Assembly: GCA_022385755.1 (NCBI GenBank)
Contig: MU278356.1
Span: forward strand, 480,589-544,588
Direction of reading: 5' to 3'
From: Trametopsis cervina
Lineage: Eukaryota > Basidiomycota > Agaricomycetes > Polyporales > Irpicaceae
DNA length: 64,000 nucleotides
Shown here: piece by piece, positions 1 to 22,166 of the stretch
How positions within the stretch are numbered: position 1 is the first letter of the stretch
Layout of the letters: every line of letters starts with the position of its first letter
Position numbers and translations under genes: made by a program
Notes under the pieces: model-generated
What the model was told of the DNA's origin: nothing
What the model saw: only the letters and a program-made list of their open reading frames with translations
The model's database searches: none

Positions 1-510
1 CACTTTAGATTGACCATGTGATGGGGTAAGTAGAGAGAACAGAGGTTTATTACGCAGTGTAAGTATAGGTTTGTTACTGAGTTACCAGATGTTGTTATCA
101 GGTAACAAAACATTATTGAATTAGTGATAAGGAGTTGTTGTCAAGTAAGTAGGAGTTGCTACTATATAAGTAAGGATTGTTATCAGGTAATTAAAGATTG
201 TTACTGAATAAGTAAAAGATGTTACCAACTAGTCAATAGCAAATCAATCTATGCTAAAGAGTAAGCAATACTTGTTACACTGTAACAGAGTAACTGAAAG
301 TTATTATCAGGTCTGTAGAGGTTGTTACCAGGTAAGTATGGGTAGTTACCAAGTAAGTGGATATTGTTACACAGTAATCAAGGATAGTTACTAAGTAAGT
401 AAAAATGGTTATGAAGTAAGTAAGAGTGAATATCAAGTAAGTAGTAGTTGTTAATAAGTAAGTATATAGAGTAAGTAACATCTGTTACTGGATAAGTAAT
501 GACTACTTAC
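1..510. repeat. 21-bp minisatellite built on GTTACY(A/C)AGTAAGTA
   Basis: Units such as TTGTTACCAGGTAAGTA recur about every 21 bases with much drift. Translated, they give a 7-residue period (TYLVTIF-like), which is a by-product and not a protein. The same array lies inside elements A, B and C, and related GTAAC/GTTAC motifs occur in the fold-back element at 20.4 and 21.8 kb. It is not a telomere: no TTAGGG-type unit is present. Confidence 0.85.
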
Positions 511-652
511 CAAAATAGGCGCCCGTATTTGACCCCTCCAGAACGTACCCATGGTATAGTACACCCTGTTAGTATCAACACTAACAGTATGGCTTCAAAA
601 TTGAAGTCACTAGAGCTAAAATAAACTTGCCCAAATGCGGAAATATGGCTCT

Positions 653-660
653 CAATTTTG
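653..660. other. 8-bp target-site duplication of the KDZ element, left copy
   Basis: The octamer CAATTTTG directly precedes the KDZ terminal repeat. Its reverse complement CAAAATTG (9,378-9,385) directly precedes the second copy of the same terminal repeat. When the segment between elements A and B is turned back, the two octamers become direct repeats around one intact element, as a target duplication should be. Zisupton/KDZ-type elements are, to my knowledge, associated with 8-bp duplications. Confidence 0.8.
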
Positions 661-1340
661 CACCTGGACCGCCCACATCACTAAACTAATAAGGATGTCC
701 ATCTGGGCCGATGGACAAGCTAACACGCATGTAAGCCGCACGTCCCACATCCTGCCGGTTAAATGCTGGGCTTAGTGAGTTTGTACCAATAGAGGTAGGT
801 GCTCAAGCGCTGTCTGTGGCCGGCACAGAGGTTGTTTGTCAGAGTCACGTGTCGCTGTATATGGTAGTGCCCATCAATGAACTATGTTATGTGCGCCCTC
901 TCTGATGTAGTGTGACATGGTGCGCGCGCGCGCCCGCCATCTGCCTGCCCCCGCCTCTTGTTCGCGCGCTTTCCCCCATCAATAATGAGTGGTGCCATGT
1001 TCTAGCCCCACTCCCCTGGCGCTCTGCCCCTTCTCCCATCAGCACACGTATCTCCCCCATCAATACTGAGTGGTGCCATGTTCTGGCCCGTCCCCTTGAT
1101 GTTCTCCGCCTTTCCCGCCGTCTTCTCGCCCCTCCCATCAATACTGAGTGCTGTCCCGTCCCCTTGATGTCTTCCGCCTTCTTCGCCGTCCCCTCGTCAC
1201 CTCCCATCAATACTGAGTGCACGCCCGCTCCCTTGACGCCCTCCGCCTTCTACGCCCGTCCCTTGATGTCCCGTCGCCTCCCATCAATACTGAGTGGTGT
1301 CCCGTCCCCTTGATGCCCCCCGCCTTCTTCGCTGTCCCTT
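661..1340 (+). repeat. Left terminal repeat of the KDZ transposon
   Basis: About 680 bp, starting CACCTGGACCGCCC, almost identical to 9,386-10,064. I saw only a few differences, for example one base in the ATCTGGGCCG/ATCCGGCCG segment. The sharp start at both copies and the matching octamers next to them mark this as the element terminus. The two copies are now direct repeats; the inferred original orientation was inverted. The inner half is GC-rich and carries iterated CCCATCAATACTGAGTG motifs. Confidence 0.85.
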
Positions 1341-1850
1341 CGTCATCGATAGCCGCTCCTCTGATGCAGTCTGTCTTCTCCACCACGCTCACTGTCCCCT
1401 TATCACCTCCCCTCAATGCTGAGTAATATCTTGTGCTCGACGCCCTCTATCAATCATTCCCGCCATCCCCTCCTTGCCATCTAACACTAATGGGTGGGGC
1501 CTCGCTGCTCTGACACTGTCTATCCCTGCCGCCTTCCCTCGTTGCCTCCCATCAAGAGTCAGCGGCGACGCCCTCCGCCCCATATCGGTTCCCATCAAGA
1601 GTGAGTGGGGCTATGGTCTGGACCCCTCCGCTGACGTGCTCTCAGCTTCCTCTTATCGCTTCCCATCATGCTGCGGTCTGGACTGCTCTCTTTTTCGCTT
1701 CCGCCAAACTCTGCTCGCTTCGCCTTAGTGCCCTGCGCCCACACAGATTCCTACACGTTAGCGGGGCCACGGTCTGGACCACTGCCTTAAAGCCGCGTGC
1801 CCTCACCTTCTCTCTGCCTTCTCCCATCAAAAGCAAGATGGCACCATAGC
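970..1850. repeat. Subterminal GC-rich repeats, CCCATCAATACTGAGTG and CCCATCAAGAGTGAGTGG types
   Basis: The motif CCCATCAATACTGAGTG recurs at irregular spacing (near 979, 1,054, 1,134, 1,203 and 1,280), usually followed by GTGYCCCGTCCCCTTGATG. Further inward the unit changes to CCCATCAAGAGTGAGTGG. A second, partly diverged set lies at 9,694-10,400. Arrays of short motifs just inside transposon ends are often transposase-binding sites; that role is inferred. The open frames across this region on both strands follow the repeat and look non-coding. Confidence 0.7.
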
Positions 1851-1982
1851 TGCCTGCCTTCCCGATGCCGTCCTTGCGCGTCCTGTACGCTAACGTACTT
1901 GTAACATGTCGTCATTGTGTAGCTTACAGTAGATGAGAAAATAGGATTGCTTCAATATAATCTAAGTACAAGCGCGACAACA

Positions 1983-3761
1983 TCAAACCGCCAGGCCCGC
2001 CGAGCTCTTTTTATTCTTGCGAGGGCCGCGCGGTTTACCTTTGTCAGAGCGTTCCTTGCGCGGTTTCTTGGAAACGAGCTCCGTGGTGCCGACGGAGAAA
2101 ATCGCGGTGTCGAAGCCTCGCTTGTCCCCTGCGGAGGCGGCAGACTCGGTGGCGGCACCAGAGGCAGAGGGAACAACAATCGCGCTGTTGATGACGAGAG
2201 GGCTACTTGGCTGAGGCAATGCTGAGGTTGATAAGGATGCAGCAGGGGGAGTTAAGGCGATAGGTGTCATAGAAGAGACGGGCGCGGCATCTGCAGCAGA
2301 GACAGCATCCGGGGATGCAGCGAGAGTAGGAGCGGCGGTGGCAGAGGCCGCATCCGGGGATGCAGCGAGGGTAGGAGTGGCGGTGGCAGAGGCCGCAGAG
2401 GGATCTGTGGAGGCGGTCGCCTTGTCTGAAACCTGATCGGCGCGGGATGCTGCAGCCTCCGCGCGTTGTCGCTGCCATGTCTCGAGATCGGCCGGCGACA
2501 GACGACGAAACCGTGTAGCTCCAGACTCCCATGCGTGGAAGAGCGTATCGAGCTCAACACGAGAGCCGACATTGCCGGGTGACGTGAATGTCTTGAGCGG
2601 CCAGTTCTCGAGGATGATGCCGAACTTGTTAGTGATGTGAACGTCGAAGTCGCGATAGTACATGCGGGCGACCTTGTCAGGGCGCGCAATGAGTTCTGCA
2701 AAGGAATCAATGAGATTCAATGTATAATATGTCATCAAGCAACTACTCACGGAGTTTCTCAAAGATCAACTGAGCGGTCTTTTGCTTCAACATCAGAAGC
2801 TTGTTCTGATAGTTGGTCACAGTTCCTGGTGCAGTGTAGATTAGCATGTTGAAGGCGGTATCCTTGAAAGCCCGTCGTACCTTCCATACCACTCAATAAG
2901 AAACACTCCATCTGCGCCGCGTACTGCGCGGTCGACACCTTGAATTGCATCTGGAAATGCTCGTCGAGCCGATCGCTTGTGCTCCATGCAAACGGTAGCA
3001 TGAATGAAGATGACTGGGATCGCGCGCCGACAATCAGGATCTCAACACCAGTCCTATGGTGGAGGTTTTCAAGCTGGGCAAACCGTCAGTTGACTAACAT
3101 TTTTGATGGGCATGACACTCACCTGCGTGTTGATACTCGCCATGGTACCGCGAACGTCGTGGTACGCGTTGATGGCAACGTTGTGCGTCGCTGTATTCTT
3201 CATCTCACGGACCTCCTCGAGCTTCTCTAACGCGCCCGCTGTGACCTCCATCTGCTCCGCTTTCGACATCTCGTTCCATTCCACACGTAGCGCCTTCACG
3301 AGGGCGGGTGCTTTGACACGCGGACTGCCCACAGGAAGAGCTGAGATGTGATCACAGTAAGTGGTCTCGTTGCCCGTTATTGAAAGTAGTTACTGACCGT
3401 CGTTATGGGCCTTCACTTTCATCGATACAAACGCGTTCCAACTACTCCCGCGACGCGCCTTCTTCTGTTTACCTGAGCGTTGAAGGAGATACTCGTACCA
3501 GTAATGTACGGTGTGCTTCCCCATGTCTTTATGCAGCCTCTCGGCTATCTTCCAAACATCGTGCAAGGCATCCGTGACCTTACTGTTGAGTTCTTCTTTC
3601 CTATGCTTCATGATGTCCGCAGCTGCTTTCTTCTCTGCAGGGGTTGTCGCCTGTGCGGTCTTCTTCTTTCGCGTACGGGTCCGCCATGGCAGGTGCGACA
3701 TGGTGCTGCGCATTTTGCGCGCCTGGCTGAGGTAGCGGTCGTCGGAAGCGGAGAATGGCAT
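1983..3761 (-). CDS. KDZ-associated accessory protein X with HMG-box-like N-terminal region
   Basis: Multi-exon gene with ATG at 3,761. The first exon has a basic N-terminus (residues about 25-55 rich in K/R), then a stretch SSWNAFVSMKVKAHND that continues after an intron with a PALVKALRVEWNEMSKAEQM segment. This spacing (NAF...W..M...E) resembles an HMG box. A middle exon (about 2,759-3,060) reads VEILIVGARSQ...FMLPFAWST. A later exon near 2,590-2,690 carries MYYRDFDVHITNKFGI...ENWP followed by a GSRVELDTLFHAWESG segment. The tail is low complexity (SAASATA repeats) and ends in a basic KKPRKERSDKGKPRGPRKNKK nuclear-localisation-like run. I recognise it only as a recurrent Agaricomycete hypothetical family. 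It lies inside the KDZ element, so a role in transposition or element chromatin is inferred. Confidence 0.6.
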
Positions 3762-3924
3762 GCTGTTGGAAAAGACGAAGGTTAGGCTACTTACCTACGT
3801 GTACTGAGTCTTATATGCTGACATGGATTTTCTCAGAGTCAACAAGGTCACATGCATTGCCACAGAACCGCGGACACAAACAGGATGGAAGCGAAAAACA
3901 TCATACCTACGCATGAGCCATCAT

Positions 3925-5292
3925 TCAAAATCTGTTGAATTTGCGGATCCTTGAAGAATGCCCGACAGGTGGATCGATCTCCTCCCAAACCCACCGCGCT
4001 TCCTGATCTGAGAGCTCGTGCGCGATTGCGACGACAAACTGTTCAACGTCGGAGGAGGCCCGAACTGCGGTGTGAATTGATCCAATGAGCAAGTCGTCGA
4101 AACCCCACGCATCGGCGAAGCGGTTGAAACGGCGGCCAAGTGAGGGGACGCGTGTGGTGGGCTTCGGAGGGGGCTCGTACAGTGCCGCGCGGATGTTTCC
4201 GTGGGAGTCGCGCTGATTCCAGAAGACTCGACGATTGTTGACAGCATGAACTTCAAGAGCTGTCAGAGCAAGTATTTTCATCAATTGAGATGTGCTTACC
4301 ACGATGACGAGCACTGCTGGACAAGCCACCAGCATTGGTGTCTTGAGTATGCGTCCGTGTGCGTCTCCTTGTCATGGGCCCGACAGCTTGCACGTTATTG
4401 TCCTCGGGAATGGTCACCACGCGGGGGGGTTCTTGATGCGCTGTCTCCGCCGGACTTCCGGCGTGAGCTTGAGATGCGTTGGTGTACGTTTGAGGGGCTG
4501 GAACATGAGAGGACGATACTGTAGCCGACAGAACCTGTGATATTGACAATTAAGTGTGATCAGTGCTGTGTCAGTGTATGTTCATACCGAAGAAGGACGC
4601 ACGGGAGATGGTGACGCCGCAGGGGATTGGGTGATTTGAATCCTGGAGACACTCTCTGTAAATGCCTCATAGTCGGCGGCGTACTGAGTATGCAACGCCA
4701 GATCTCTACCCTCCAACAGGGCGGCTTTGATTGCTTGAGCCAAGGACTCAGTGCGCCTGTATTCTGTCTTCGCGGGACCCTCGAGAAAAGGCTTGACATC
4801 ATTCCTAATAGACGCTGTTAGTAGTACAGAGAACTGCAAATGCACCGACATACCACTTTGAACTGATGAAACGGACTCCACCGGTGCCTTTCACAACAGT
4901 GTAGTACGATCACGATCGAGTCATGTGGTAGTTGCAGCTATCGAATGTTGCGATCTCGTCGATGCGACGAAGTTGCTCCTCGCGGTCTAGATGAGTGATG
5001 GCGCAGATGAACCTGCGCAGAGGGCTGAATGCCCTAACGTCGTAGTCATTTGCACAGAATAGCGACAAGGGGAACACGCTGTCAGTGACTTGAGCTTGCA
5101 AACTGCGCCAGCTGTGGATGAAACGTGAGCCAAGTGAGCAATCACTGCGGCTGGATCGTGAAGAGCTATTGCGCACTTGCTGTAGCTGTGAAGGCCGTCT
5201 AGTCCGCCACCACCAATCACGAGAACTTGTAGGCTATCGAGAGGCGTAGCCTGGCCCATGTATCGTTGCCTGGTCTGACGTGTATTCGACAT
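3925..5292 (-). CDS. KDZ-associated accessory protein Y, unknown function
   Basis: Multi-exon minus-strand gene, ATG near 5,292 (MSNTRQTRQRYMGQATPLDS), oriented divergently from the transposase 5' exons 215 bp away. Later segments read FPLSLFCANDYDVRAFSPLRR, then a Q/S/P-rich middle (PAASPSPVRPSS, about 4,585-4,640), and a C-terminal part with VHAVNNRRVFWNQRDSHG, PSLGRRFNRFADAWGFDDLL and HELSDQEARWVWEEIDPPVG. The end is at 3,925. I see no catalytic motif and do not recognise the family. One join near 4,900 may contain a frame problem (a TGA follows HMTRS), so I cannot tell whether the copy is intact. Position inside the KDZ element suggests an element-encoded accessory role. Confidence 0.5.
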
Positions 5293-5507
5293 GTTGAGAA
5301 CTGAGCGAGGCTGTGGACAGGTGAAGCGATAAGTGGTGCAAGCGTAACTTGGCTCATTAGCGTTCTTCAATCGCCAATGCGTGCATGCAGCTGAGCGCCC
5401 CGCCAACCTTGCATCCTCTCGTTTAGCTCCTGTCCCTACTCTCTACTCGCACACGCACGCATTCATCTGAAGCCGTAAGCACAGTCCAACAAGTCCTTAT
5501 AACGAGT

Positions 5508-6053
5508 ATGCGTAGAGTCCAAACGACAAAAGGGGGCAGTTCAAGGCTCGTGAACAAGACGAGACTTGTTCAATCAGCCCGAGTGCAAGATGTCCACCCA
5601 ACGGCGCGCGGGCTCCGTCGAGGCGTTGCGCAGCAACTCGGACATAGGAAAATTGAAGAAGATCGGATGCAGACGCAAGAGCGCATTGCGCATGCCATAG
5701 CAGGTAAGGGGGGAACACGGCTGGACTCACCATGTTTCCATATATTTTAACGAATACCTCCTTCAGCCCTCACCGCAGAATAACGCCAAGTTCTTATGGA
5801 TAATGAACTTGTCGAGCCAGAGGAGCCGCAAGTGGTGACATTGGACATAAACATGGAAGGCAACGAGGACGAAGCTTGGGTCGATGTGAAAGCGGATGCT
5901 GAGGAGCTAGGAGTGCAGGAGACCTTCATCGATGCTATGCAGCATATGAGTCGGTGAGTACACATACCATTACATGGAATACTCACTCAGACCTCATGAT
6001 ATGTGTGTAGCTGGAACGGCCGTTGGCGACGAGTAGGGCAAGCCAAGACTTGG
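5508..6053 (+). pseudogene. 5' exons of the split KDZ transposase gene
   Basis: Plus-strand exons upstream of element A. A basic first segment (VAQQLGHRKIEEDRMQTQER, about 5,628-5,690) precedes an intron beginning GTAAGG. An acidic exon follows (MDNELVEPEEPQVV, then DEAWVDVKADAEELGVQETF, 5,794-5,955), then a GTGAGT intron ending TGTGTAG. The last exon (6,012-6,053) reads WNGRWRRVGQAKTW and stops at ACTTGG. The catalytic part at 13,344 resumes, on the other strand, with the same ACTTGG followed by RTKVTRQQEAW. Joined, they give AKTW-RTKVTRQQEAW without a frame change, as expected for the region before the CxC cluster in KDZ proteins. The reading frame across the first intron is unclear, so a second lesion is possible. 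Confidence 0.55.
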
Positions 6054-6344
6054 GTGAGCAGGCCAGCAAGTGGCAGGTTACGATTCCTGAGGTCTTTATA
6101 TGTTCTAAAATATATGCAATACATCAAGCAACTGGTTTTATTTAGAAAGCAGCAACTTTTCTGCTTTTTTCATGGACTCAAATGATCTGATAGTGAAAAA
6201 ACACACTTCATATAATGTTGTTACCCACTATCAAAGTAATTTGAAAGGTCACACAACTATAACTCATAAAGGACTTTGAAGACTGTTTAAAATTTATGAT
6301 AATTTTTTGAACTTGATTTAAGACTTTACTTTCAATTTATATGG

Positions 6345-6740
6345 TGTGGGAAAAGACTTCCCAATGTGGAAAATGTGTACTTATGTAATCTGATGTCACT
6401 ACTACAAACAGTTTTACTGTAGTTATATTATTAAGCTCAAAAAGTACAAAATATGGCCAAAACATCGGATTTTAAGAGTGTCATAACATTAGAGGTGCAA
6501 ATGAAGATGTATAAATGGCTCTATAGGCTGTCCAGAATTTAAAGTGATTTTTCTAGATTTTTCTGGATTTTATTTAAGGATCTACAGTTAAATTATAGAT
6601 CGTGGGAAACCCACTTCCAAATGTGGAAAACGTCCGCTTAGCTAATCTGATGTCATTACTGTAAACAGTTTTGCTGTAGCTGCATTATTGAGCTCAGAAA
6701 GTGCAAAATACTGCCAAAACATCGAAATTGAAGCCATATT
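6345..6740 (+). repeat. Internal tandem module of the A-family
   Basis: Two consecutive copies start with GTGGGAAA near 6,347 and 6,602 and share CTTCCMAATGTGGAAAA, TAATCTGATGTCA, AACAGTTTT(A/G)CTGTAG and ATTATTRAGCTCA. A third, more diverged copy lies at 8,134-8,260. The same module recurs in D (9,000 and 9,250) and C (16,320 and 17,330). The family therefore grew by internal duplication. Confidence 0.7.
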
Positions 6741-6869
6741 TCCGCATTTGGGCAAGTTTATTTTAGCTCTAGAGACTTCCATTTTTAAGCCATACTGTTA
6801 GTGTTGATACTAACAGGGTGTAGTATACCATGGGTACCTTCTGGAGAGGTCAAATATGGGCGCCTATTT

Positions 6870-7130
6870 TGGTCAGTAAGCATTGCTTATCCAGTAACAA
6901 ATGTTACTTACCCCATTCACTTATTTGTAACCAATTGTATTCACTTAGTAACCAATGTTACTTACCCAGTAACAATGTCTACTTACTTGGTAACAATATT
7001 TACTTACTCAGTGAAAATCTTTATCTACTTGATAACAATATTTACTTACTTGGTAACACACTTTACTTACCCACTAACAACTTCTACTTAATCAATAACA
7101 ACTCCTTATTATCAATTCACAGTTCAGTAG
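6870..7130. repeat. 21-bp minisatellite inside element A
   Basis: Units such as TTTACTTACTTGGTAACAATA recur with a 21-bp period, the same array as at 1-510 and 14,980-15,240. The hexamer ACTTGG, which also flanks the insertions of A and B, occurs inside some units. Confidence 0.85.
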
Positions 7131-7283
7131 CAATGTCTGTTGACTCAGGAATAAATATTTGTTATCAGGTAACAAAATGATATTAGTCTTTAGCAACTTG
7201 TATTTACTTACTTCATGATATTTCTATTGAACTTTGACAATGCTTCATGGTATACTGTATTAAAGCAAATAGTAATGATATAT

Positions 7284-7355
7284 GCCTTGGTAGCTTAGTG
7301 GTAGTGTTGTTCATTTTACTACTGAAAGCCTTGGGTTCAATCTCTGCCGGTGGCA
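7284..7355 (+). other. tRNA-like Pol III promoter module 1
   Basis: 72 bases beginning GCCTTGGTAGCTTAGTGG, which contains a good A box (TAGCTTAGTGG), and ending with a B box (GGGTTCAATCTC) followed by GCCGGTGGCA. The length equals a tRNA. About five of seven acceptor pairs form, but the T stem is poor, so this is a degenerate tRNA-derived sequence and not a functional tRNA. No T-run follows directly. The mirror copy is at 14,753-14,824. Confidence 0.65.
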
Positions 7356-7569
7356 AATTTGCTTCCATTGAGTGTCAGCAATATTATGTCTTTAACTTTC
7401 GAGTAAATGGGCGTCTAAAATTACTCCTCTGTTCGTTGGTTAATCATGCTTCCTTGCAGTGTCCTGATTGGCTTAGAGCTGATGTTGCCCATGGTGCACT
7501 TTTGCTGAACCACATAGTGTCTAAACTAATCTGTGGATACTGGATTAGATCTGTAACATTTCTCAACAT

Positions 7570-7641
7570 GCCCTGATGGTGTAGTGGTATAAGTGTTGGC
7601 TTTGCAATTATCTGCTGCTGGTTCAATTCCTCTGCAGGCCC
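7570..7641 (+). other. tRNA-like Pol III promoter module 2 with T-run
   Basis: 72 bases starting GCCCTGATGGTGTAGTGG, with an A box (TGGTGTAGTGG), an anticodon-like loop CTTTGCAAT, a B box (GGTTCAATTCC) and an end CTGCAGGCCC followed by TTTTT, a Pol III terminator. Acceptor pairing is weak. Two such modules 286 bp apart in the same orientation suggest a tRNA-derived SINE captured by, or ancestral to, the element. The mirror copy is at 14,467-14,538. Confidence 0.65.
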
Positions 7642-8764
7642 TTTTTCCCTTGGGCCGGATTGTGTTTTAGATAAGCTCTCTTTCTCACATTTCTAGTTTA
7701 ACTTGTGCGCTAATCGTTTCTGTCTAAATATGAGGTAATTCTGCTTACTTTCTGCTTACTGAGGCTGCTCTGATTGGCCAGCATTGTTGGTGGCAAGGCT
7801 TTATTTGGCCCTTTTTGGCTGTTTTCGCTAAAATCAGCTGTAGAGCCACCAATAAAATCTGGAAAAATCTGGAAAAATCTTCAGAAAATCAGGAAGAATT
7901 GGAAACCCCCGCTCACACAGTCACATGACTTTCCCACGATCATGTGATCTCAAAAACTGTCTTCTTTTGCTGGAAAATGTACAGAATGACTTATACAAAG
8001 CTGAATAAAATGTATTAAAATCTGCTAAAATCAAAATATATTATGTAATGCACATCAGCATGTACCTGAGATGTCATTTGGCCCTCATATATTATGTATT
8101 AAGCAAAGGCCATACATATACAGGTATAGACAGACTGTGAGAGTTTACCTTCCCAAAATGGAAGGTGTGCGCTTATCTAATCTGATCCTCCCACCATGCA
8201 CAGCATTGCTGTAGCTGCATTATTAAGTTCAGAAAACACAAAATACTCGAAAAGCATAGGCAATATAAGTTTCCAAAGTCTATAGAACAGCACTGAGGCA
8301 TGAAATATGCTTCAAATGAGAGGGGCTCTTTAATATAAATGTTTTATAAGCCAAACCGGGTCCCATCAAAGTTGGGCGCTTATTTCCCAAAAAGGACATA
8401 TGTGTTTCTCACTTTCTGCTCTCAATTCTGCATAGTTTCCTTAATAAAGGTGACCACAGTGTAGCCTAATGTCATGGCTACATGTGGATATACACATTAC
8501 TGGGAAACTTTGGGATGGGGAGGCTGTAAAAATCGAGGAAGTTTTGTAGTCTCAAATAAGCGCCCAACTACAGAAAATGGTAATGAGTCAATAACTGCTA
8601 CTAATGCCATCAAAAGCATACAATATGATAACAAAAGACACATATAAAAGTGTATTCAAACAAAATTCCCACGCATTGGGGACAAAAAGCGTCACATCTC
8701 GCAGAACCCCAATATGCCAGACGTTACTGGAACGATTCTTTTCTTCGTACCTCAGGAATCGTAA

Positions 8765-9385
8765 CTAATGAACTACTTGGGTTTATGAAGCAGTAACTTT
8801 TCTGCTTCTTTGACTGGTACAAAGGGCCAAAAAATGAGAAAACACTTCAATCAAATAATACTGTAGACTACATAACAGCTGATGATTATATATGCGCTAA
8901 AATGACATATAAAGGGCTCTGAAGACTGTTTAAAATTTTATCATGATTTTTCAGATTTTCCTGAATTTTATTTGAGACTTTACAATCAATTTAAGGACTG
9001 TGGGAACAAGCTTTCTTAATGTGGAAACATTTGCTTATGTAGTCTGATGTCACAAATACAAACAGTCTTGCTATAACTATATTATTAAGCTCAGACAGCA
9101 GAAAACAATACCAAAACATCACATTTTGACAGGTCTGACAACTCTAGAAGTGCAAATGAAGACATGTGAATGACTCCATAATCTGTACAAAATTCAATGT
9201 AAATTTTCCGAATTTTTCTGGATTTTATTTGGGGCTCTACAGTCAATTTATTAACCGTGGGAAAATAGGTTACAAAAGGGGAAAACGTCCGCTTAGCTAA
9301 TGTGATGTCATGGCTACAAACAGTTTTGCTCTAGCTGCATTATCAAGCTCAGAAAGTGCAAAATACTGCCAAAACATCAAAATTG
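8765..9385 (+). mobile_element. Displaced part of element E/D
   Basis: Aligns with the left part of element A from about 6,115 to 6,750 (for example AACTTTTCTGCTT and the GTGGGAAA module), with clear divergence. It lacks the terminal TACGATTCC motif. It ends at CAAAATTG (9,378-9,385), the inverted copy of the octamer at 653-660. Turned around, it continues element E beyond the KDZ insertion. Near its left end, ACTTGG (8,775-8,780) matches the hexamer flanking A and B. Confidence 0.75.
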
Positions 9386-10064
9386 CACCTGGACCGCCCA
9401 CATCACTAAACTAATAAGGATGTCCATCCGGCCGATGGACAAGCTAACACGCATGTAAGCCGCACGTCCCACATCCTGCCGGTTAAATGCTGGGCTTAGT
9501 GAGTTTGTACCGATAGAGGTAGGTGCTCAAGCGCTGTCTGTGGCCGGCACAGAGGTTGTTTGTCAGAGTCACGTGTCGCTGTATATGGTAGTGCCCATCA
9601 ATGAACCATGTTATGTGCGCCCTCTCTGATGTAGTGTGACATGGTGCGCGCGCGCGCCCGCCATCTGCCTGCCCCCGCCTCTTGTTCGCGCGCTTTCCCC
9701 CATCAATAATGAGTGGTGCCATGTTCTAGCCCCACTCTCCTGGCGCTCTGCCCCTTCTCCCATCAGCACACGTATCTCCCCCATCAATACTGAGTGGTGC
9801 CATGTTCTGGCCCGTCCCCTTGATGTTCTCCGCCTTTCCCGCCGTCTTCTCGCCCCTCCCATCAATACTGAGTGCTGTCCCGTCCCCTTGATGTCTTCCG
9901 CCTTCTTCGCCGTCCCCTCGTCACCTCCCATCAATACTGAGTGCACGCCCGCTCCCTTGACGCCCTCCGCCTTCTACGCCCGTCCCTTGATGTCCCGTCG
10001 CCTCCCATCAATACTGAGTGGTGTCCCGTCCCCTTGATGCCCCCCGCCTTCTTCGCTGTCCCCT
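9386..10064 (+). repeat. Right terminal repeat of the KDZ transposon, now in direct orientation
   Basis: Almost identical to 661-1,340, again starting CACCTGGACCGCCC right after the octamer. Identity stops near 10,064 (GCTGTCCC), after which both copies continue with related but different GC-rich repeats. In the inferred pre-inversion layout it was the opposite end of the element, in inverted orientation. Confidence 0.85.
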
Positions 10065-10507
10065 TGTCGCCTCCTATCGATACTGGGTGCGCGCCCGCCC
10101 TCGACAACACTGCTTGCCATTCCCCCATCCCCTGCTTACCCTCTGACGGTAATTGGCGGTGGCTCGCGGCTTTGACGCTGCTCATCTTTGCCGCCGCCTC
10201 CCATCCCGAGTAGCGCACCCTCTGCCCCCATCAAGAGTGAGCGGCAATGCCCTCTGCCCTTACTCGCTTCCCATCAAGAATGAGTGGGGTCCCAGTCTGG
10301 ACCGCACTCTCTCCCTGCCTTACCGCTTCCATCAAGAATCAGTGGTCTGGACCGCCACCTTTCGTTGTCCCCTTCTCATTTCCCATCAAGAATGAGTAGG
10401 GGATACTCCATTGTTCCCTCCTCTCGCCGTCGAGCCCTACATCCTTGCTCAACACATTCAAAAAGTGTATTCTATGTAGTGTATGTACAATAAAAATAAA
10501 ACATTAC

Positions 10508-13344
10508 TTAGACATCCAATGCGGAGATGAAATCAACCAGATGCCCAAGGGTGTCCTGCTCCTCATCACCCTCCAGAACATCTACGTCGTCATCACGGTT
10601 GGCTTCGTCAAGGTCAGGAACGGGGCCAGCTGCCTCATCAAGAACGACCGGTATCAAGCCGACGCGAACGTCCGTACCTTTGATGCCGGTGAACCCTTGA
10701 AGTCGGTACACTTCATACACACGGCCAAGAAGATGATCATTCATCCTGCCACGCCGCTCGGCGAATTCCTTCACGGGCCCGAGGAGTGGGTCATTCGCAG
10801 CTTGAAGGCGAGCGCACGTTTGATTGAAAAGGACGCGCTCGTCGCGAATGGCTGTATGGAGACGTCGGACTTCCACATTAAGGCGGTCGATCTCTTCACG
10901 AGTGTGGCGTATCCGGTGGCGCATCTTCATCACCGCGCGCACTGCGGACTTGGTCCATTGGAGGTCGCAAACATCATTACGTGTGTTTTGCAGAAGGGCA
11001 AACTGCTCCAGAAACTGGTACCCGCCAATCTCGGACCAGTTGAGGGGGGGATGTGGGGGATCAAGAGCAGCAGCAGCGGTGTTGTAGGAGGCGATCGCCT
11101 GCTGGATCGCCTTGGAGCGCGTTTGGAGGGACTTGGAGATGTGCGTCCGCATCTTATACCCTGTAGCGCATGTAAGTACAGGCTGTATTTGATAGAAAAA
11201 CTTCTCACCTGTCTGAGCGACATTCATTCTCTGGAGCTCGAATAGACGTTGAGTAACAAGCTTTTGGAGCTTGTTGAGGGTGCGGTGATATTGCCGCTCC
11301 TTGATGTACTTGATCGCGGCCAGGTATTCCGGGGTCAAGGGCGTCCAACGAACCGCGATCCCCATCTGCAACTCGAGCGCGCAAACATCGGCATACACGC
11401 GATCATAACGTTCGTTTGCATGACGATGCTCGGTTTCGACCCGGCGGGTTGTGGACTGATCCCGGTTGTATGCAGGGCCTCCTGTGGGAAGGTATGAAAG
11501 GAACCGTGTGTTTGCTTGCGCTCGCTTCGATTCAAGCTCCCGCAAGTCTTGCAGCCGTTCAACGTATGCGATAGCATGGACGTCGTGTGGATCCTCCTGT
11601 CCTAAGTGTGAGAAAAACGCAGCTTCGTCGGCTTCCCATTGATCGAGATCGACCTCCGTAATTCCGAGGGACTGTAAGGCCTCGTTGAATGCAGCGGCGT
11701 CGTGGTGGATGATCTCAAGGGCCTGCTTGTAATTGTTGAGGATGAAGGTACCGCTGTTGAGATGCTTGTTTTCGTCAATTTGGCGAAGGAAAGCTTCAAT
11801 GAAGAGGCGGCGGCGGTACGGCGAAGCATAGCGAGTGACGGAAGCAAGCGCATTTGTAAGGCTGAATAACCGTTCCATTGTTTCAAGATCCTCGAGGCCG
11901 GCCCCAGGGATGATGTTGGGGTGATATTCAAGCTGGCAGGCGTAACAGTGTGAATACCCGTGGAATGCACAGACACAAAAGCGTCCGCCTGAGGCCGCAA
12001 ATGCTGGCCCCAACGAGCTGCGTTCGGTCGTCGTGTCGAAGCTACAACCTACATCGTATCCAAGGAGGACTTGCTTGGAGGTCTCGAGCACCTTGGCTAC
12101 GATTGCGAGCGGGTATTTGGCCCTGATGTGAGGCGATGAGTTACGAAGGCACAACGAAGCAGATTTGAACTTACAGCTCGCCGCTACACACCATGTCGAT
12201 GACCCATAAGAAAAAGCCGTGCCGACAGGCTGCGGCAAAGATCCCGGCCTCGTCGAAGATCGCCCACATCTTCTTGCGTTCCTCCTTCGCTGCACTCTTC
12301 CAGTTCTTGACACACAGTGCAAGCTTGCGGCGACGGGCCTCCCGCGCATCATTATTTGGGGCACCTTGTGTCTCGGAGGGTTGCAGGCCGTCGGTCGGGT
12401 CGCCTTCCGTGTTTGTACCGGCAGCGTCGTTGTCACTCTCGTCATCTGAGTCTAGTCTGTTGTGTTTGACGGTTGGCCCCTTGGAGATCTTTCCGTGGAC
12501 TTCATTGGCGAATCGATTCACGAAGCTGGAAGGAATGAAGTAGTCGCTGTCTTCGAGGGAACGGGTGTCTGCGGCTGTACGGTGAGTGGCAGTGGCCATG
12601 CGTTTGAGGCTGTTGTTCCCATCCATTGCGATTAGTCGTCCAAAACGCAGAGGGGGTTCGTCCTCGAGCTGAATGGCAGAGTGTACATGAGTATATGCGG
12701 TTAAGAAAGCAAGGCAGTACTTACCTCGTAGCAACACGCCCTGCACGCGTTTTTAACCCTCCAATCCGGTGCTCCCCACCCCAGGACCTCGTAGACTTGC
12801 TTGTGAACATTACGAGTGATCCGTAGGTACACCTCGAATGTGTCCGCAAATACTTCACGAATGTGACGACGGTATGGTTTCTAGACACTGTGAGTTACGG
12901 CGCACAACCTGATAATCTATCAGTACTTACATTATAATAATCACAAACAACCTTCGCGAATGCTTCTATACTGTAAGATGGCTTGCGTTGGCGAAGGCGG
13001 TAGAGCAATTCGAGAGTGCTGACAGAGACAGCGATGATAGGTCGAGTGGGGGATTTGACAATAAAACCATGGCGCATAAGGTCCACGGCAGGGGAGGTAC
13101 TGTCTGCTCGGCGTTGACAAGTGAAGTTATCAGTAAGGGTAAAGATGTTGTACGTATCTACCGTATAAGCGTATGTTTCGAGCGGCACCTCGGCTTGCTC
13201 AGGCCGTGGCTGGGCCTCGCTCACTTGCTCGGGGACAATAGCGTCGTCACATGCGCGATATTTCCAGCGGACAAACTCCTCAGTCATCAAGTCGATGACT
13301 TTCCCCCACGCCTCTTGTTGACGAGTCACTTTCGTCCTCCAAGT
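10508..13344 (-). pseudogene. KDZ-family transposase, CxC cluster plus RNase H-like catalytic domain (5' end displaced)
   Basis: Multi-exon minus-strand gene with an open frame from the B junction to its end at 10,508. It opens with RTKVTRQQEAWGKV and continues to FVRWKYRACDD. An exon at about 12,742-12,882 (KPYRRHIREVF onward) ends in the cysteine cluster VKNACRACCYE. The catalytic domain follows with IAMDGNNSLKR (first Asp), LLGYDVGCSFDTT (second Asp) and GLEDLETMERLFSLTN (candidate Glu), the layout of Kyakuja-Dileera-Zisupton transposases. The C-terminus is a long helical part and an acidic tail ending GHLVDFISALDV. I see no stop or frameshift in this part. It is classed as a pseudogene only because its first exons are 7 kb away on the other strand (5,508-6,053). 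Confidence 0.85.
13339..13344. other. CCAAGT hexamer at the left border of element B
   Basis: CCAAGT lies directly before TACGATTCC of B. The same hexamer follows B at 16,055-16,060. Its complement ACTTGG precedes A at 6,048-6,053. The hexamer also occurs at 8,775-8,780 (as ACTTGG, ten bases beyond the A terminus) and at 16,128-16,133. This pattern fits a 6-bp target duplication or a strong target preference. Confidence 0.6.
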
Positions 13345-14466
13345 TACGATTCCTGAGGTACGAAGAAAAGAATCGTTCCAGTAACGTCTGGCATATTGGG
13401 GTTCTGCGAGATGTGACGCTTTTTGTCCCCAATGCGTGGGAATTTTGTTTGAATACACTTTTATATGTGTCTTTTGTTATCATATTGTATGCTTTTGATG
13501 GCATTAGTAGCAGTTATTGACTCATTACCATTTTCTGTAGTTGGGCGCTTATTTGAGACTACAAAACTTCCTCGATTTTTACAGCCTCCCCATCCCAAAG
13601 TTTCCCAGTAATGTGTATATCCACATGTAGCCATGACATTAGGCTACACTGTGGTCACCTTTATTAAGGAAACTATGCAGAATTGAGAGCAGAAAGTGAG
13701 AAACACATATGTCCTTTTTGGGAAATAAGCGCCCAACTTTGATGGGACCCGGTTTGGCTTATAAAACATTTATATTAAAGAGCCCCTCTCATTTGAAGCA
13801 TATTTCATGCCTCAGTGCTGTTCTATAGACTTTGGAAACTTATATTGCCTATGCTTTTCGAGTATTTTGTGTTTTCTGAACTTAATAATGCAGCTACAGC
13901 AATGCTGTGCATGGTGGGAGGATCAGATTAGATAAGCGCACACCTTCCATTTTGGGAAGGTAAACTCTCACAGTCTGTCTATACCTGTATATGTATGGCC
14001 TTTGCTTAATACATAATATATGAGGGCCAAATGACATCTCAGGTACATGCTGATGTGCATTACATAATATATTTTGATTTTAGCAGATTTTAATACATTT
14101 TATTCAGCTTTGTATAAGTCATTCTGTACATTTTCCAGCAAAAGAAGACAGTTTTTGAGATCACATGATCGTGGGAAAGTCATGTGACTGTGTGAGCGGG
14201 GGTTTCCAATTCTTCCTGATTTTCTGAAGATTTTTCCAGATTTTTCCAGATTTTATTGGTGGCTCTACAGCTGATTTTAGCGAAAACAGCCAAAAAGGGC
14301 CAAATAAAGCCTTGCCACCAACAATGCTGGCCAATCAGAGCAGCCTCAGTAAGCAGAAAGTAAGCAGAATTACCTCATATTTAGACAGAAACGATTAGCG
14401 CACAAGTTAAACTAGAAATGTGAGAAAGAGAGCTTATCTAAAACACAATCCGGCCCAAGGGAAAAA

Positions 14467-14538
14467 GGGCCTGCAGAGGAATTGAACCAGCAGCAGATAA
14501 TTGCAAAGCCAACACTTATACCACTACACCATCAGGGC
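14467..14538 (-). other. tRNA-like module 2 in element B
   Basis: Inverted copy of 7,570-7,641, with the same A box, B box and T-run. Confidence 0.65.
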
Positions 14539-14752
14539 ATGTTGAGAAATGTTACAGATCTAATCCAGTATCCACAGATTAGTTTAGACACTATGTGGTT
14601 CAGCAAAAGTGCACCATGGGCAACATCAGCTCTAAGCCAATCAGGACACTGCAAGGAAGCATGATTAACCAACGAACAGAGGAGTAATTTTAGACGCCCA
14701 TTTACTCGAAAGTTAAAGACATAATATTGCTGACACTCAATGGAAGCAAATT

Positions 14753-14824
14753 TGCCACCGGCAGAGATTGAACCCAAGGCTTTCAGTAGTAAAATGAACA
14801 ACACTACCACTAAGCTACCAAGGC
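14753..14824 (-). other. tRNA-like module 1 in element B
   Basis: Inverted copy of 7,284-7,355, with the same A and B boxes. Confidence 0.65.
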
Positions 14825-14979
14825 ATATATCATTACTATTTGCTTTAATACAGTATACCATGAAGCATTGTCAAAGTTCAATAGAAATATCATGAAGTAA
14901 GTAAATACAAGTTGCTAAAGACTAATATCATTTTGTTACCTGATAACAAATATTTATTCCTGAGTCAACAGACATTGCT

Positions 14980-15240
14980 ACTGAACTGTGAATTGATAAT
15001 AAGGAGTTGTTATTGATTAAGTAGAAGTTGTTAGTGGGTAAGTAAAGTGTGTTACCAAGTAAGTAAATATTGTTATCAAGTAGATAAAGATTTTCACTGA
15101 GTAAGTAAATATTGTTACCAAGTAAGTAGACATTGTTACTGGGTAAGTAACATTGGTTACTAAGTGAATACAATTGGTTACAAATAAGTGAATGGGGTAA
15201 GTAACATTTGTTACTGGATAAGCAATGCTTACTGACCAAA
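14980..15240. repeat. 21-bp minisatellite inside element B
   Basis: Inverted copy of the array at 6,870-7,130 (units like TTGTTACCAAGTAAGTAAATA). Confidence 0.85.
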
Positions 15241-16060
15241 ATAGGCGCCCATATTTGACCTCTCCAGAAGGTACCCATGGTATACTACACCCTGTTAGTA
15301 TCAACACTAACAGTATGGCTTAAAAATGGAAGTCTCTAGAGCTAAAATAAACTTGCCCAAATGCGGAAATATGGCTTCAATTTCGATGTTTTGGCAGTAT
15401 TTTGCACTTTCTGAGCTCAATAATGCAGCTACAGCAAAACTGTTTACAGTAATGACATCAGATTAGCTAAGCGGACGTTTTCCACATTTGGAAGTGGGTT
15501 TCCCACGATCTATAATTTAACTGTAGATCCTTAAATAAAATCCAGAAAAATCTAGAAAAATCACTTTAAATTCTGGACAGCCTATAGAGCCATTTATACA
15601 TCTTCATTTGCACCTCTAATGTTATGACACTCTTAAAATCCGATGTTTTGGCCATATTTTGTACTTTTTGAGCTTAATAATATAACTACAGTAAAACTGT
15701 TTGTAGTAGTGACATCAGATTACATAAGTACACATTTTCCACATTGGGAAGTCTTTTCCCACACCATATAAATTGAAAGTAAAGTCTTAAATCAAGTTCA
15801 AAAAATTATCATAAATTTTAAACAGTCTTCAAAGTCCTTTATGAGTTATAGTTGTGTGACCTTTCAAATTACTTTGATAGTGGGTAACAACATTATATGA
15901 AGTGTGTTTTTTCACTATCAGATCATTTGAGTCCATGAAAAAAGCAGAAAAGTTGCTGCTTTCTAAATAAAACCAGTTGCTTGATGTATTGCATATATTT
16001 TAGAACATATAAAGACCTCAGGAATCGTAACCTGCCACTTGCTGGCCTGCTCACCCAAGT

Positions 16061-16127
16061 ATGTTGTATATATTTAAGACATGTAAAGGCCTCAGGAATC
16101 GTAACCTGCCGCTTGCCGGCCTGCTCA
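16061..16127 (-). mobile_element. Terminal fragment of element E/D
   Basis: Holds CCTCAGGAATCGTAA (16,090-16,104) and the extension CCTGCCGCTTGCCGGCCTGC. It is a diverged version of the end of B just before it (16,016-16,054). Placed after the inverted 8,765-9,385 segment, with B removed at CCAAGT, it completes the right end of E/D. It is followed by CCAAGT and then the interior of element C. Confidence 0.65.
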
Positions 16128-16133
16128 CCAAGT

Positions 16134-17946
16134 TTGCTGTAGCTATATTATTAAGCTCAGAAAGTGGAAAGCAATACCAAAACATCAGATTTTAGAGGGC
16201 ATCACAACTCTAGAGGTGCAAATGAAGATACATAAATGGCTCTATAGGCTGTGCAAAATCTAATGTGATTTTTACAGATTTTTCTGAATTTTATTAAAGG
16301 CTCTACAGTCAAATTATGGACCGCGGGAAACTCAACTCCCAAAGGGGAAAACGTCCGCTTATGTAATCTGATGTCACTAGTACAAACAGTTTTGCTGTAG
16401 CTGCATTATTGAGCTCAGAAACTGCAAAATACTGCCAAAACATCAAAATTGAGAGCCATATTTCCGCATTTGGGCAAGTTTATTTTAGCTCTAGAGACTT
16501 CAATTTGGAAGCTATACTGTTAGTGTTGATACTAACAGGGTTTACTATATCATGGGTACCTCCTAGAGTGGTCGGATATGGGTGCTCAATCTGGTAAGTA
16601 ATCATTACTTACTCAGTAACAAATGTTAATTACTTAGTAACAATGTCTACTTACTTGGTAATAAGTATTATTTACTTGATAACAATTATTAGTTACCCAG
16701 TAATAATAATACTTACTCAGTAACGACTCTTACTTACTCTATAACAACTTCTATTTACTGACTGGGGCAGTATTTGAAATGCATAAGCAGCCATTATGCA
16801 TATTGGAGCAGTTACAGGGCGTCTACTGTTATCTGTCAAAAAACTGTCAAAGCTGCTTACATTCAGCCTGCTGATTGGCTTAGGGCTCATGTAGCACATG
16901 GTGCGCATTTTTGGCGCCTAATTTGGCGCACAGTCACGTGTCCGCTCAGAGCGGCCTGTAGCACTGACCGGCCTTTGTTTGGCTCTTGTTTGGCTTCTTT
17001 TTGGGGTGTTTTCGCTAAAATCAGCTGTAGAGGCTTCAATAAAATCCGGACAAATCTGGAAAAATCACCAGAAATTGTGAAAGACTAAGCAACCACCTCA
17101 CACATTGACACGTGACATTCCCACGGTCATGTGATCCTGCAAAATGTGTTCTTTTACTGAAAAATGTCCAGAATGTCTCATTGAGAGCTTAATAAAATGT
17201 ACCAAAATGCGGTAAAATCAGAATACATTATGTAATACATTTAGGCATATGTCTGAGATGTTGAATGGCTGTTCTAGCTTGAGTATTGAGTGAAAGGCAT
17301 ACATGTAAAGGTGTAGACAGACCGTGGGAGTGTACCTTCCCAAAATGGAAGGTGTTTGCTTATCTAATCTGACCCTCCCACCATCCACGGCATTGCTGTA
17401 GCTGCATTATTAAGCTCAGAAAACACAAAATACTTGAAAAACATCGATAATGCAAGTTTTCAAAGCCAATAAAACAACACTGAGGCATGGAATATACTTC
17501 AAATGAGGGGGGCTCTTAGCTAGAAGTGTTTTATGAGCCAAACCGGAGCCCATCAAAGTGGGCGCTTATTTCCCAAAAAGGGCATATGTGTTTCTCATCT
17601 TCTGCTCTCAATTCTGCATGGTTTCCTTAATAAAGATGACCACAGTGTAGCCCAATGTCATAACTACATGCTGATATACAATTTGCTGAGAAACTCTGAC
17701 ATGGGGAGGCTGTAAAAATCGAGGAAGTTTTGTAATCTCAAATAAGCGCTCAACTACACAAATTGCTAATGAGTCAATAACTACTACTAATGCCATCAAA
17801 ACCATACAAAATGTTAACATAATAAGCTTATAAAAGTGTATTCCAATCAAAATTCCCACGCATAGGGACAAAAATGTCACTGTCGCAAGATGTCAAGGTG
17901 CCAAGTGTTATTGGAACGATTCTACTTCGTACCTCAGGAATCGTAA
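16134..17946 (+). mobile_element. AT-rich element C, older family member interrupted on its left
   Basis: Diverged relative of A in the plus orientation. It has the repeated module (16,320 and 17,330), the GTTAGTGTTGATACTAACAG segment near 16,520, a short minisatellite (16,600-16,755) and the right terminus CCTCAGGAATCGTAA (17,932-17,946). Its left part was separated by insertion of E/D at 16,128. The right terminus abuts the Copia polyprotein exactly where reverse transcriptase should continue, so C inserted into the retrotransposon. Confidence 0.75.
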
Positions 17947-20080
17947 ATGTGTAGTACAAATTTGAATCCTACTGGCCACTTTCCTGGAGGCAAGCACTCC
18001 ACTTCTTCATATACACCTTTCGCCTGAAGTGCCTCCAACTCCTCATATATGGCAGCAAGCCATTGGGACCAGTATGCGCTGCGTTGTGCCTCGGCTACAG
18101 TGAGCGGATCAGTAGCGTCTGTGTCGTTGATGGGAGCAGTAGGGTTGGCGCTGTTGAGGTTCCGTTCAGCATCTTCGATAGCAGCAAGTGCGTGTGCTGG
18201 GTCGTCGACGGTTACTATAGCCTCTGCGTTGAGTGCGAGGGCAGACAGCAGTGCAGTATACACACGCAGCCCCCCCTTGTCCGAGTACTCCACGTTGTCT
18301 GTCTTGTACCGTGCAGGTATGCAGGGCACCCGCAGACGTAGAACACGACGGGCAACAAGCTTGGGGGGAGTGATACTGTAGAGCACGTGATGAAGGCACG
18401 GCAGAGTAGAAACAGCACGATAGAGGCACGCAAAACACGAAGGCAATATGTACACGTCAGGTGTGGTAAGGGGCTCAGGAGGCAACAAAGGCTCCTCCCG
18501 GCCAAGGGAATCGGATGGCAGCACTACCTCGGGAATGCCAGCAGGCAGCGACTGCTCATCAGGCAGAGAAGGGGATGACAGTGGTGGTAGTTCGTCGACA
18601 GGCAATACATCGGCAGACTGCTCAGCACGGTCAGAAAACCGGCTGTCCTCATCCATTAGGATGTCGTCCCATAAGGCAGTATTGGCAGGCGCAGGCGCAG
18701 AGGTAGGGATAGGAAGATTGTGGAAGACAACGTCACGTCGAACATGAATGGCGTACGCATGAGGGAACCAAATGAGGTAGCCCTTGGCATCACGTGCATA
18801 GCCGAGGAAGCGGCCCAATTTACCACGCGGTTCTAATTTTGGAAGGTCACTGGAGGTGGTTTTGCGAGCATGCCGAAAGGGCGTAGGTGTGAGACATCAG
18901 CCTTGCGGCCGAATAAGAGTTCGAAAGGCGTGACATCAGGAGGCAGGGCCGAATGTGGGACACGGTTCTTTGTGTGAGCAGCAGCCTGGACAGCAAGCGG
19001 CCAGAAATAGTGGAAGGTGTTGCCATCAAGAAGCATTGCACGAGCCATGGCAGCGAGGGTGCAGTTGGTGCGCTCGGCGACGCCGTTTTGAGGGGATGCG
19101 TCTGGTATGATCTTCTCGTACTGGATGCCTTGTTGGGTACAGTATTCAGCAAAGCGGCCCTTGACATACTCGGGAGCATTGTCGACACGCAGGACAGAGA
19201 TTTTGTGGGATGTATAGCGTTCCATAGCGGCCTGGAACTCTAGGAAGCGGTCGAAGGCCTCGGATTTGTGCTTAAGGAAGAAGACAGAGATGTAGCGAGA
19301 GAAACAGTCAATGAAGAGAATGAAGTATTTTAGGCTGCTATAGGAGTTTGGAAGAGGGCCGCAGATATCAGAATGAACACGAAAGAGAAGACGGTCGGCC
19401 CGGAGATCAGACGTTTTGGGAAAGGGCAGGCGCACAATATTTGCTCGCGCGCACACAGAACAGCCGCGGTGGACAGAGTGGTCCTGTTGAGTGCCCACGA
19501 CTGCACAAGACAGCCCTTTTACGCCTATATGGCCAAGGAGGCGATGCCAAAATCCACACTGTCAGGTGGAGGAGGTATCACATCCTTGCTAGGTGCAGAG
19601 GTGGCGTAGACCACAGGAGAACTGAGACGGTCCAGTAACCGATGAGGAGCAGTGGGAGGAGACACCGGAAAGGTCACAACAGTGGGCGGAGGGACCTGAG
19701 GCTGCATGTGGAGGAGGTATATGTTGTTGGGCAGCAGCTCCCCACTAACGAGCAGGTTCTCACAGTGGATCAGTGTGATCTGCCCATTCTTGGTGTGACT
19801 GGATACACCATGGTGCGCAAGACAGCCCTGTGAGACGAGGTTGATTCGGGCGGAGGATACATGGAGGACGTTGGATAAGCTGATGGTGGCCGGTACACCA
19901 TGGCAAATGGCCATAAGGAGGATTTTTCCGGTGCCAACAGCACTGGTAGCATGCTGCGAGTCAAAACCATGTACCTGGAGGGGTGGGGTAGGTTGGTAAT
20001 CGTAGAACAAGCAGCGGTCAAAGAAGATGTGCCGCATAGCCCCAGAGTTGTGGTAGCACAGCGAAGAAGGGGGTGTCGTC
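17947..20080 (-). pseudogene. Copia retrotransposon pol fragment: protease, GAG-pre-integrase, integrase, start of RT
   Basis: Read from high to low coordinates. The protease motif region reads CYHNSGAMRHIFFD where DSGA(T) is expected. It is followed by a Copia-type GFDSQHATSAVGTG segment and the pre-integrase spacer. The integrase has CSVCARANI, HSDICGPLP (first Asp), LRVDNAPEY (second Asp) and SPQNGVAERTN (Glu), then FELLFGRKADVSHLRPFG. A frameshift near 18,850 precedes RGKLGRFLGYA. The frame ends at the RT entry (GKWPVGFKFVLH) where element C begins. There is at least one further frame break near 19,500. The copy is dead: catalytic Asp replaced, frames broken, RT and RNase H absent. Confidence 0.85.
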
Positions 20081-22166
20081 TCATCAGGCTACTGGGACAA
20101 GGTGCTAATAGCCCTCATGTCGTCTATATGTGGAGGCTGCTAATTGCACCCCTCCCTTGATAGCCTGGGTCACCTACGGCTGCTTAGGATCAACCAGACG
20201 GGCGCTTTGGGCTTTCTAATAGGTTGCCCTGGGCTGATCTGGGAGACCTATATAATAGCTTGGTAGACCACAGAATAATACTGCATCATAGGGTATCTGG
20301 GGTCCTTGATGTCTATTTGAAGCCTTGTTTATAATTTTGTTATACTATCATTAATGACTACTAAGCTTTGTATATATTATACACTTAGCTTATTATCTAA
20401 CACAGATAATGAGATAAAAGATTTGTAATTGAGTAAGAAAGTAAATGTTACTTAGTAACAAATAACAGTAATAGGTTTTTCTTACTCAATACAAATAGAT
20501 TTGTTACTTGTTAATAATATGTTTATAATATAGTCATAGAGCTTTATTTCTCTTTGAGGGAATTGATATAAAGAACTGATTACATAAGCCTTCAGTAGTA
20601 GAATGATAAATTACCATAATGGGAAATTACTGAATATTAAGATTTATCAATAAAGAAAAGGGGTATGAAGGTAGTTTGATGCCTTGAGAATATAGTATAG
20701 AGCTATATATGAGTGTTTGTAAAAGAATGGGGATGATATCTATGTTGGTTGTGCTAAAATAGACATGTTCTCCTCTTCCTCTTTTCAATTTCAAAAGTGT
20801 CTTACCATAGCGTTAGCTGTATAGATATCACTGTTCTGGGGTCTTGAAAACCTGTTATAGTATGTATATGGTATGTGTAATCAGTTTCAGAAGCATCCCA
20901 TCAGTATTGATGCTTTTAGAGGCTTACAAACATGTGACAGTGCAAAAACACCCATTATCATCTCTAGACAGCTGAGTATTCTGATTCAGGTCAAGCTGAT
21001 GTCTGGAGTGCGTTCCTCACCCCAAAATACCCCCACTCAGGACCCAAGATTATTTATAATATCTGTTCTTAAAGTGAAATGGGGGAGGTTGTAGTTAGAG
21101 TGTATGTCAAGCACTGAACAAGTGGTCCAATCTGAACTGATACACTGTAACTAATGTTAGCACAAGTGCTCATGATATTAAGATGCTGGAAATGGTTTTG
21201 GGCCTTGAGTGGGGGTATTTTGGGGTGAGGAACGCACTCCAGACATCAGCTTGACCTGAATCAGAATACTCAGCTGTCTAGAGATGATAATGGGTGTTTT
21301 TGCACTGTCACATGTTTGTAAGCCTCTAAAAGCATCAATACTGATGGGATGCTTCTGAAACTGATTACACATACCATATACATACTATAACAGGTTTTCA
21401 AGACCCCAGAACAGTGATATCTATACAGCTAACGCTATGGTAAGACACTTTTGAAATTGAAAAGAGGAAGAGGAGAACATGTCTATTTTAGCACAACCAA
21501 CATAGATATCATCTCCATTCTTTTACAAACACTCATATATAGCTCTATACTATATTCTCAAGGCATCAAACCACCTTCATACCCCTTTTCTTTATTGATA
21601 AATCTTAATATTCAGTAATTTCCCATTATAGTAATTTATCATTCTACCACTGAAGGCTTATGTAATCAGTCCTTTATATCAATTACCTCAAAGAGAAATA
21701 AAGCTCTATGACTATATTATAAACATATTATTAACAAGTAACAAATCTATTTGTATTGAGTAAGAAAAACCTATTACTGTTATTTGTTACTAAGTAACAT
21801 TTACTTTCTTACTCAATAACAAATCTTTTATCTCATTATCTGTGTTAGATAATAAGCTAAGTGTATAATATATACAAAGCTTAGTAGTCATTAATGATAG
21901 TATAACAAAATTATAAACAAGGCTTCAAATAGACATCAAGGACCCCAGATACCCTATGATGCAGTATTATTCTGTGGTCTACCAAGCTATTATATAGGTC
22001 TCCCAGATCAGCCCAGGGCAACCTATTAGAAAGCCCAAAGCGCCCGTCTGGTTGATCCTAAGCAGCCGTAGGTGACCCAGGCTATCAAGGGAGGGGTGCA
22101 ATTAGCAGCCTCCACATATAGACGACATGAGGGCTATTAGCACCTTGTCCCAGTAGCCTGATGAGA
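20079..22166. mobile_element. Fold-back (long inverted repeat) element
   Basis: Left arm 20,079 to about 21,047 and right arm about 21,198 to 22,166 are near-perfect inverted copies of some 970 bp around a spacer of about 150 bp. Ends read TCTCATCAGGCTACTGGGAC and its complement. The interior is AT-rich with GTTACT/AGTAAC motifs. The two longest mirrored frames are palindromic artefacts. It sits between the gag and protease parts of the Copia copy. I found no clear target duplication; the right flank is not contiguous Copia sequence. A third, diverged end lies at 23,590-23,786. Confidence 0.85.

Follow-up and report, generated by a model that had tools for sequence, protein, structure and literature searches.

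A KDZ transposon of Trametopsis cervina that appears to have been split by a flip between two identical inverted Helitron2-like elements

We analysed a stretch of 64,000 nucleotides (C9:480589-544588, hereafter the window) from the polypore Trametopsis cervina (Irpicaceae; assembly of 29.4 Mb in 59 contigs), in which a KDZ transposon lies in two parts on opposite strands. The present order appears to derive from a collinear KDZ element in which 8,767-13,341 was flipped; each breakpoint falls at one of two identical inverted copies of a smaller element, A and B. We regard it as nearly certain that the present order is not ancestral, because a single alignment crosses each of the three joins between the dispersed pieces when the segment is turned and none of them as the sequence now stands, and because a relative elsewhere in the genome carries the turned order. 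We further think it probable that the segment was inverted in the fungus itself, by recombination between A and B. The first-pass annotation of this DNA had described a KDZ transposon cut in two and scrambled; that observation is confirmed, and is stronger than first described, and the interpretation attached to it is supported in part. The features on which the argument draws are the following.

298-660, minus strand: fragment of copy C, an older Helitron2-like repeat, on the left side of the KDZ insertion (aligns with A from position 1,036 downward)
653-660, plus strand: left copy of the 8-bp target duplication, CAATTTTG (same as the right copy once the segment is turned)
661-1,338, plus strand: KDZ terminal repeat, left copy (pairwise alignment; now direct with 9,386-10,062)
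661-6,047, plus strand: KDZ element up to A, with the terminal repeat of the left end, the accessory gene (minus strand) and the 5' exons of the transposase
1,983-5,292, minus strand: putative conserved accessory gene, approximate extent (exons unsettled; query pieces joined by eye)
5,508-6,048, plus strand: KDZ transposase 5' exons (5,508-5,703, 5,767-5,953 and 6,011-6,048; collinear match in the C28 relative)
6,048-8,764, plus strand: Helitron2-like element A, lying within a KDZ exon and running from ACTTGG to CGTAA; identical to B as far as 8,766
8,767-9,377, minus strand: piece of copy C, turned around (alignment to the A family)
9,378-9,385, minus strand: right copy of the 8-bp target duplication, at present reversed (CAAAATTG)
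9,386-10,062, minus strand: KDZ terminal repeat, right copy (pairwise alignment)
9,386-13,343, minus strand: remainder of the KDZ element in flipped orientation, with the right terminal repeat and the catalytic exons
13,343-10,508, minus strand: KDZ catalytic exons (13,343-12,931, 12,880-12,725, 12,668-12,175, 12,122-11,209 and 11,160-10,508; Pfam and exon model)
13,344-16,060, minus strand: element B, which sits in copy C and is an inverted copy of A without differences; the identical stretch begins at 13,342
16,061-16,136, minus strand: end fragment of copy C, to the right of B (alignment to the A family)

KDZ ends and the divided transposase gene

The two KDZ terminal repeats lie on the same strand and are 99.3% identical over 678 columns (4 mismatches, 1 gap), in keeping with the earlier description of them as direct. 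The octamers that had been reported in opposite orientation are indeed so placed, with CAATTTTG at 653-660 and its reverse complement CAAAATTG at 9,378-9,385, each directly before a terminal repeat. Turning 8,767-13,341 around was said to restore inverted ends, a direct duplication and a collinear gene; we found that it restores all of these at once, together with the older repeat copy C, which is made whole across two insertion sites. The KDZ element thus has terminal inverted repeats in the turned order and direct ones in the present order. In the turned order it spans 12,062 bases, or 9,343 when the 2,719-base repeat is left out, and the junctions fall at 6,047/6,048 and 13,343/13,344, with one A base shared. 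An 8-bp duplication is a feature of Zisupton and of KDZ1.

The transposase assignment is supported by matches to Pfam KDZ (PF18758) above the cut-off in two exons (E 1.4e-37 and 1.6e-27). Upstream of the catalytic domain there may be a cysteine cluster, with matches to CxC3 (E 6.9e-5) and CxC1 (E 0.0067) that both stay below the curated cut-off. Joined across the junction, the exons are modelled as one protein of 1,016 positions with a single in-frame TAA (5,781-5,783). The earlier claim that the exons converge from two sides holds for the rightward 5' exons from 5,508 and the leftward catalytic exons from 13,343, but not for the motif ACTTGG as a mark of exon ends (see below). Because of the insertion of A, the flip and the in-frame TAA (unless an intron is mis-modelled there), the transposase gene is broken. 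A public T. cervina protein model (P0001) starts within the catalytic part, after the junction, and lacks the 5' exons; it comes from the same assembly and so lends no independent support. We also considered A as a spliced intron of the transposase (GTGAGC follows ACTTGG) and rejected this, judging from genomic sequence: splicing at the sole CAG near the other end would keep a stop codon in frame, and introns elsewhere in the exon model measure 48-62 nt.

The left part of the element also carries the putative accessory gene, whose region has minus-strand tblastx matches to the C28 relative. The single homolog found, P0121 of Irpex rosettiformis, is 39% identical over 92% of the query, and the contigs of P0121 and of the KDZ transposase P0002 are both 42,617 in length. 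Neither the gene nor, in a Pfam search, its homolog matched any family above the cut-off; P0121 has an HMG_box_2 match just under it (E 3.2e-4).

Elements A and B and the older copy C

A (6,048-8,766) and B (13,342-16,060) are inverted relative to each other and identical at 2,719 of 2,719 nt, which bears out their description as identical inverted copies over that whole length. B had also been taken to be nested in the KDZ element; it sits instead in the outer repeat copy C, 0.6 kb past the KDZ end. The first-pass annotation had further let both sets of exons end at ACTTGG. Since 29 of the 33 listed left-end matches of the A family start with ACTTGG (in the other four the match begins only further inside), the motif at 6,048 is the end of A and has no more than a resemblance to the KDZ target. 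For the same reason ACTTGG was ruled out as a target duplication of A. At the right end, 36 of the 37 listed matches end in TAA, with one place counted twice.

Several features suggest what kind of element A is. It has an asymmetric inverted repeat, with one arm at the CGTAA end and its partner about 29 nt inside the ACTTGG end, a layout described for fungal Helitron2-type elements in PMC5148889. Reading from the CGTAA end, the partner is followed by a hairpin with a 4-bp stem that is fully paired in 20 of 30 family contexts; the remaining 10 have a broken pair or a G-T pair. The paired stems include changes on both sides (GCCA/TGGC, GCCG/CGGC, GCTG/CAGC), and when one arm was slid as a control, 0, 0, 0, 0 and 1 of the 30 contexts were fully paired. 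At three empty sites (the KDZ exon, copy C and a palindromic element at C36), insertion of the family left no target duplication, with one base shared. Insertion between TTTT and T or C is a preference reported for Helitron2, variable among Helitron2-type elements. Because this preference is absent at the three empty sites, we call the family Helitron2-like and not Helitron2. On these grounds A and B resemble rolling-circle elements of a Helitron2-like, non-autonomous kind.

A genome search in which 40 of 92 candidates were scored gave at least 144 matches to the A family, and among the 40 scored the closest other copies reach 90% identity at full length and, for one partial copy, 93%. Family members are clustered, often with one cluster per contig (C3, C9, C12, C34, C38 and others), and the clusters might mark centromeres; some exact end motifs lie outside them. 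Helitron_like_N has nine matches in the genome. One of these lies in an open frame on C52 (C52:19561-27811; L049, L050) whose end falls just short of a terminus that shares 85% identity with A over 68 nt. This element is a candidate for the autonomous partner of A; its other end was not found in C52:17001-22000. Two stretches of A that look tRNA-like by eye (7,288-7,360 and 7,573-7,640, also present in B) were not called by ARAGORN, which found no tRNA in the window. An Rfam scan of the window likewise placed no tRNA in A, its sole hit being an snR75 snoRNA elsewhere (39,533-39,640, minus strand, 64.9 bits). The window also holds a 2,088-bp palindromic element (20,079-22,166) that is 96% identical to its own reverse complement and has 52 matches in the genome, adjoined by a copia-type gag match below the cut-off (22,214-23,080, minus strand).

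Copy C had been missed in the first pass, and its pieces are contiguous in the turned order only. When the KDZ element and B are left out of that order, an alignment of 1,059 columns to A (77% identity) crosses both insertion sites. Leaving out A, B or KDZ in turn at the respective join, we found that the turned order is crossed by one alignment of 1,082 columns to the C28 relative (65%) and by alignments of 696 (75%) and 834 columns (79%) to the A family.

Relatives with a collinear order

An unrearranged copy of about 9.3 kb bounded by CACCTGGACC, which the first-pass annotation had proposed to look for, is present in the same genome. This relative (C28:4288-13529) is 9,242 bp long, has the turned order and a collinear transposase, and is bounded by 799-bp inverted repeats that are 100% identical, with the 8-bp duplication ACAAATCG on both sides. 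The 18-base KDZ terminus lies at C28:4288 (plus strand) and C28:13529 (minus strand). Whereas the pattern CACCTGGACC with further fixed bases occurs at 16 places, the full 18-base form is found only on C9 and C28, twice on each. The C28 transposase matches residues 2-1,016 of the exon model in order and on one strand, and one DNA alignment with C28 (2,759 columns, 66%) passes straight through the site that A occupies in the window.

A search with the C28 product (P0005) recovered C28, C9, C41 and a distant match on C37. A second relative, on C41, keeps its 5' and catalytic exons on a single strand and in order; near the junction it aligns more weakly, one piece having E 0.15. Among proteins, 41 of the 120 homologs listed (273 found) align in a single HSP through residues 122-162 around the junction, so that the joined exons do match other KDZ proteins across it, and the Irpex rosettiformis homolog is ungapped across those residues. 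The remaining listed homologs do not cross residues 122-162, partly since some models, such as P0001, begin further in. Genome-wide searches of T. cervina, which give lower bounds, turned up no second KDZ element arranged in the present order.

History of the locus and comparison with known systems

At the level of sequence, these alignments establish the insertions, how they are nested, and that a flip whose two breakpoints lie at A and B turned the earlier order into the present one. From them we infer the following order of events. A KDZ element of about 9.34 kb would first have inserted into copy C, making the duplication CAATTTTG. A young Helitron2-like element would then have inserted twice, as A in the KDZ transposase exon and as B in C, 0.6 kb past the KDZ end and in opposite orientation to A. 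Crossing-over between the identical inverted copies, for which their identity over 2,719 nt is a prerequisite, would have turned the 4.6-kb segment between them, splitting the transposase gene and setting the KDZ ends direct, so that the KDZ transposase could presumably no longer excise the element as one unit. All four mismatches fall in the KDZ ends and none in A/B (chance probability 0.0016), which fits A and B being younger than the KDZ ends or homogenised; the mismatches may, however, predate the KDZ insertion, and the identity of A and B could also come from assembly reuse of a consensus.

The last point touches on an explanation that the earlier interpretation omits, namely that the fungus keeps the turned order and that the assembler misplaced the 4.6-kb segment between perfect 2.7-kb inverted repeats. 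We take this to be a real possibility, if the less probable one. Perfect inverted repeats stand at both breakpoints, and a paper on fungal Helitrons reports that identical copies hinder short-read assembly (PMC5148889). Stretches of N, from 10 to at least 1,329 long, occur in the loci that we examined, and one of 1,160 adjoins the window on its left. C45:1749-15827 (L041, L042) holds three identical 4,548-bp blocks, one inverted and two flanking a 10-N gap, which are probably an assembly artefact and cast doubt on repeats in this assembly generally. Against this, the 64-kb window itself contains no N, so that A and B are joined to their flanks without a marked gap; not every run of N need be an assembly gap, and we found no sequencing method for T. 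cervina in the literature. If the assembly is at fault here, nested marks of this sort could be used to detect wrongly turned segments in draft fungal genomes.

A one-step replicative inversion, in which A or B inserts a new copy close by in the same molecule and thereby turns the segment between, strikes us as improbable. It would account together for the exchanged flanks and for the zero differences between A and B, no other copy being as close among the matches scored, and replicative bacterial transposons can invert DNA between copies. Yet we know of no such inverting reaction for Helitrons, and our literature search on Helitron inversions returned general papers and nothing that joins Helitrons, intramolecular transposition and inversion, which is not proof of absence. 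Its end product is the same as that of insertion followed by crossing-over, so sequence cannot decide between the two. Were it true, Helitrons would be able to invert DNA directly, with no need of homologous recombination. Finally, that the present order is original (a natural KDZ variant with direct ends and a gene split over two strands) has nothing in its favour beyond that order itself and is very improbable given the C28 relative with inverted ends and a collinear gene, the contiguity of copy C only when turned and the collinear homologs.

Should recombination between A and B in the fungus be the right reading, as we favour, young rolling-circle elements in a repeat nest can break up and strand larger transposons. 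The element shares with other KDZ (Kyakuja-Dileera-Zisupton) transposons, such as Cryptococcus KDZ1-KDZ3 (PMC12810828), a catalytic domain, terminal repeats that are inverted once the segment is turned, an 8-bp duplication and a size of about 9-11 kb. Its terminal repeats are longer (678 bp, and 799 bp in the C28 relative) than the 139-241 bp given in PMC12810828 for KDZ1-KDZ3. A and B share with FoHeli, a Helitron2-type element of fungi (PMC5148889), the asymmetric inverted repeats (about 15 bp at one end and about 30 bp inside the other), a small end hairpin, the lack of a target duplication and many non-autonomous copies. They differ from it in their end sequences and in the absence of the TTTT-to-T/C insertion rule, and the C52 candidate is matched at one end only. 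From KDZ1-KDZ3 the KDZ element here also differs in being apparently split by an inversion and in having a conserved accessory gene, whose homolog gave no Pfam match above the cut-off.

Identical inverted repeats with exchanged flanks were observed at both breakpoints. Inversions by recombination between inverted transposable-element copies leave just these marks, and inversions between inverted repeats are an already known kind of rearrangement. Unlike such inversions in general, the flipped segment here cuts through another transposon, so that the original order can be checked independently, by the ends of the KDZ element, its target duplication, its gene and the interrupted host repeat; the apparent inversion is thus legible from mutually independent marks.
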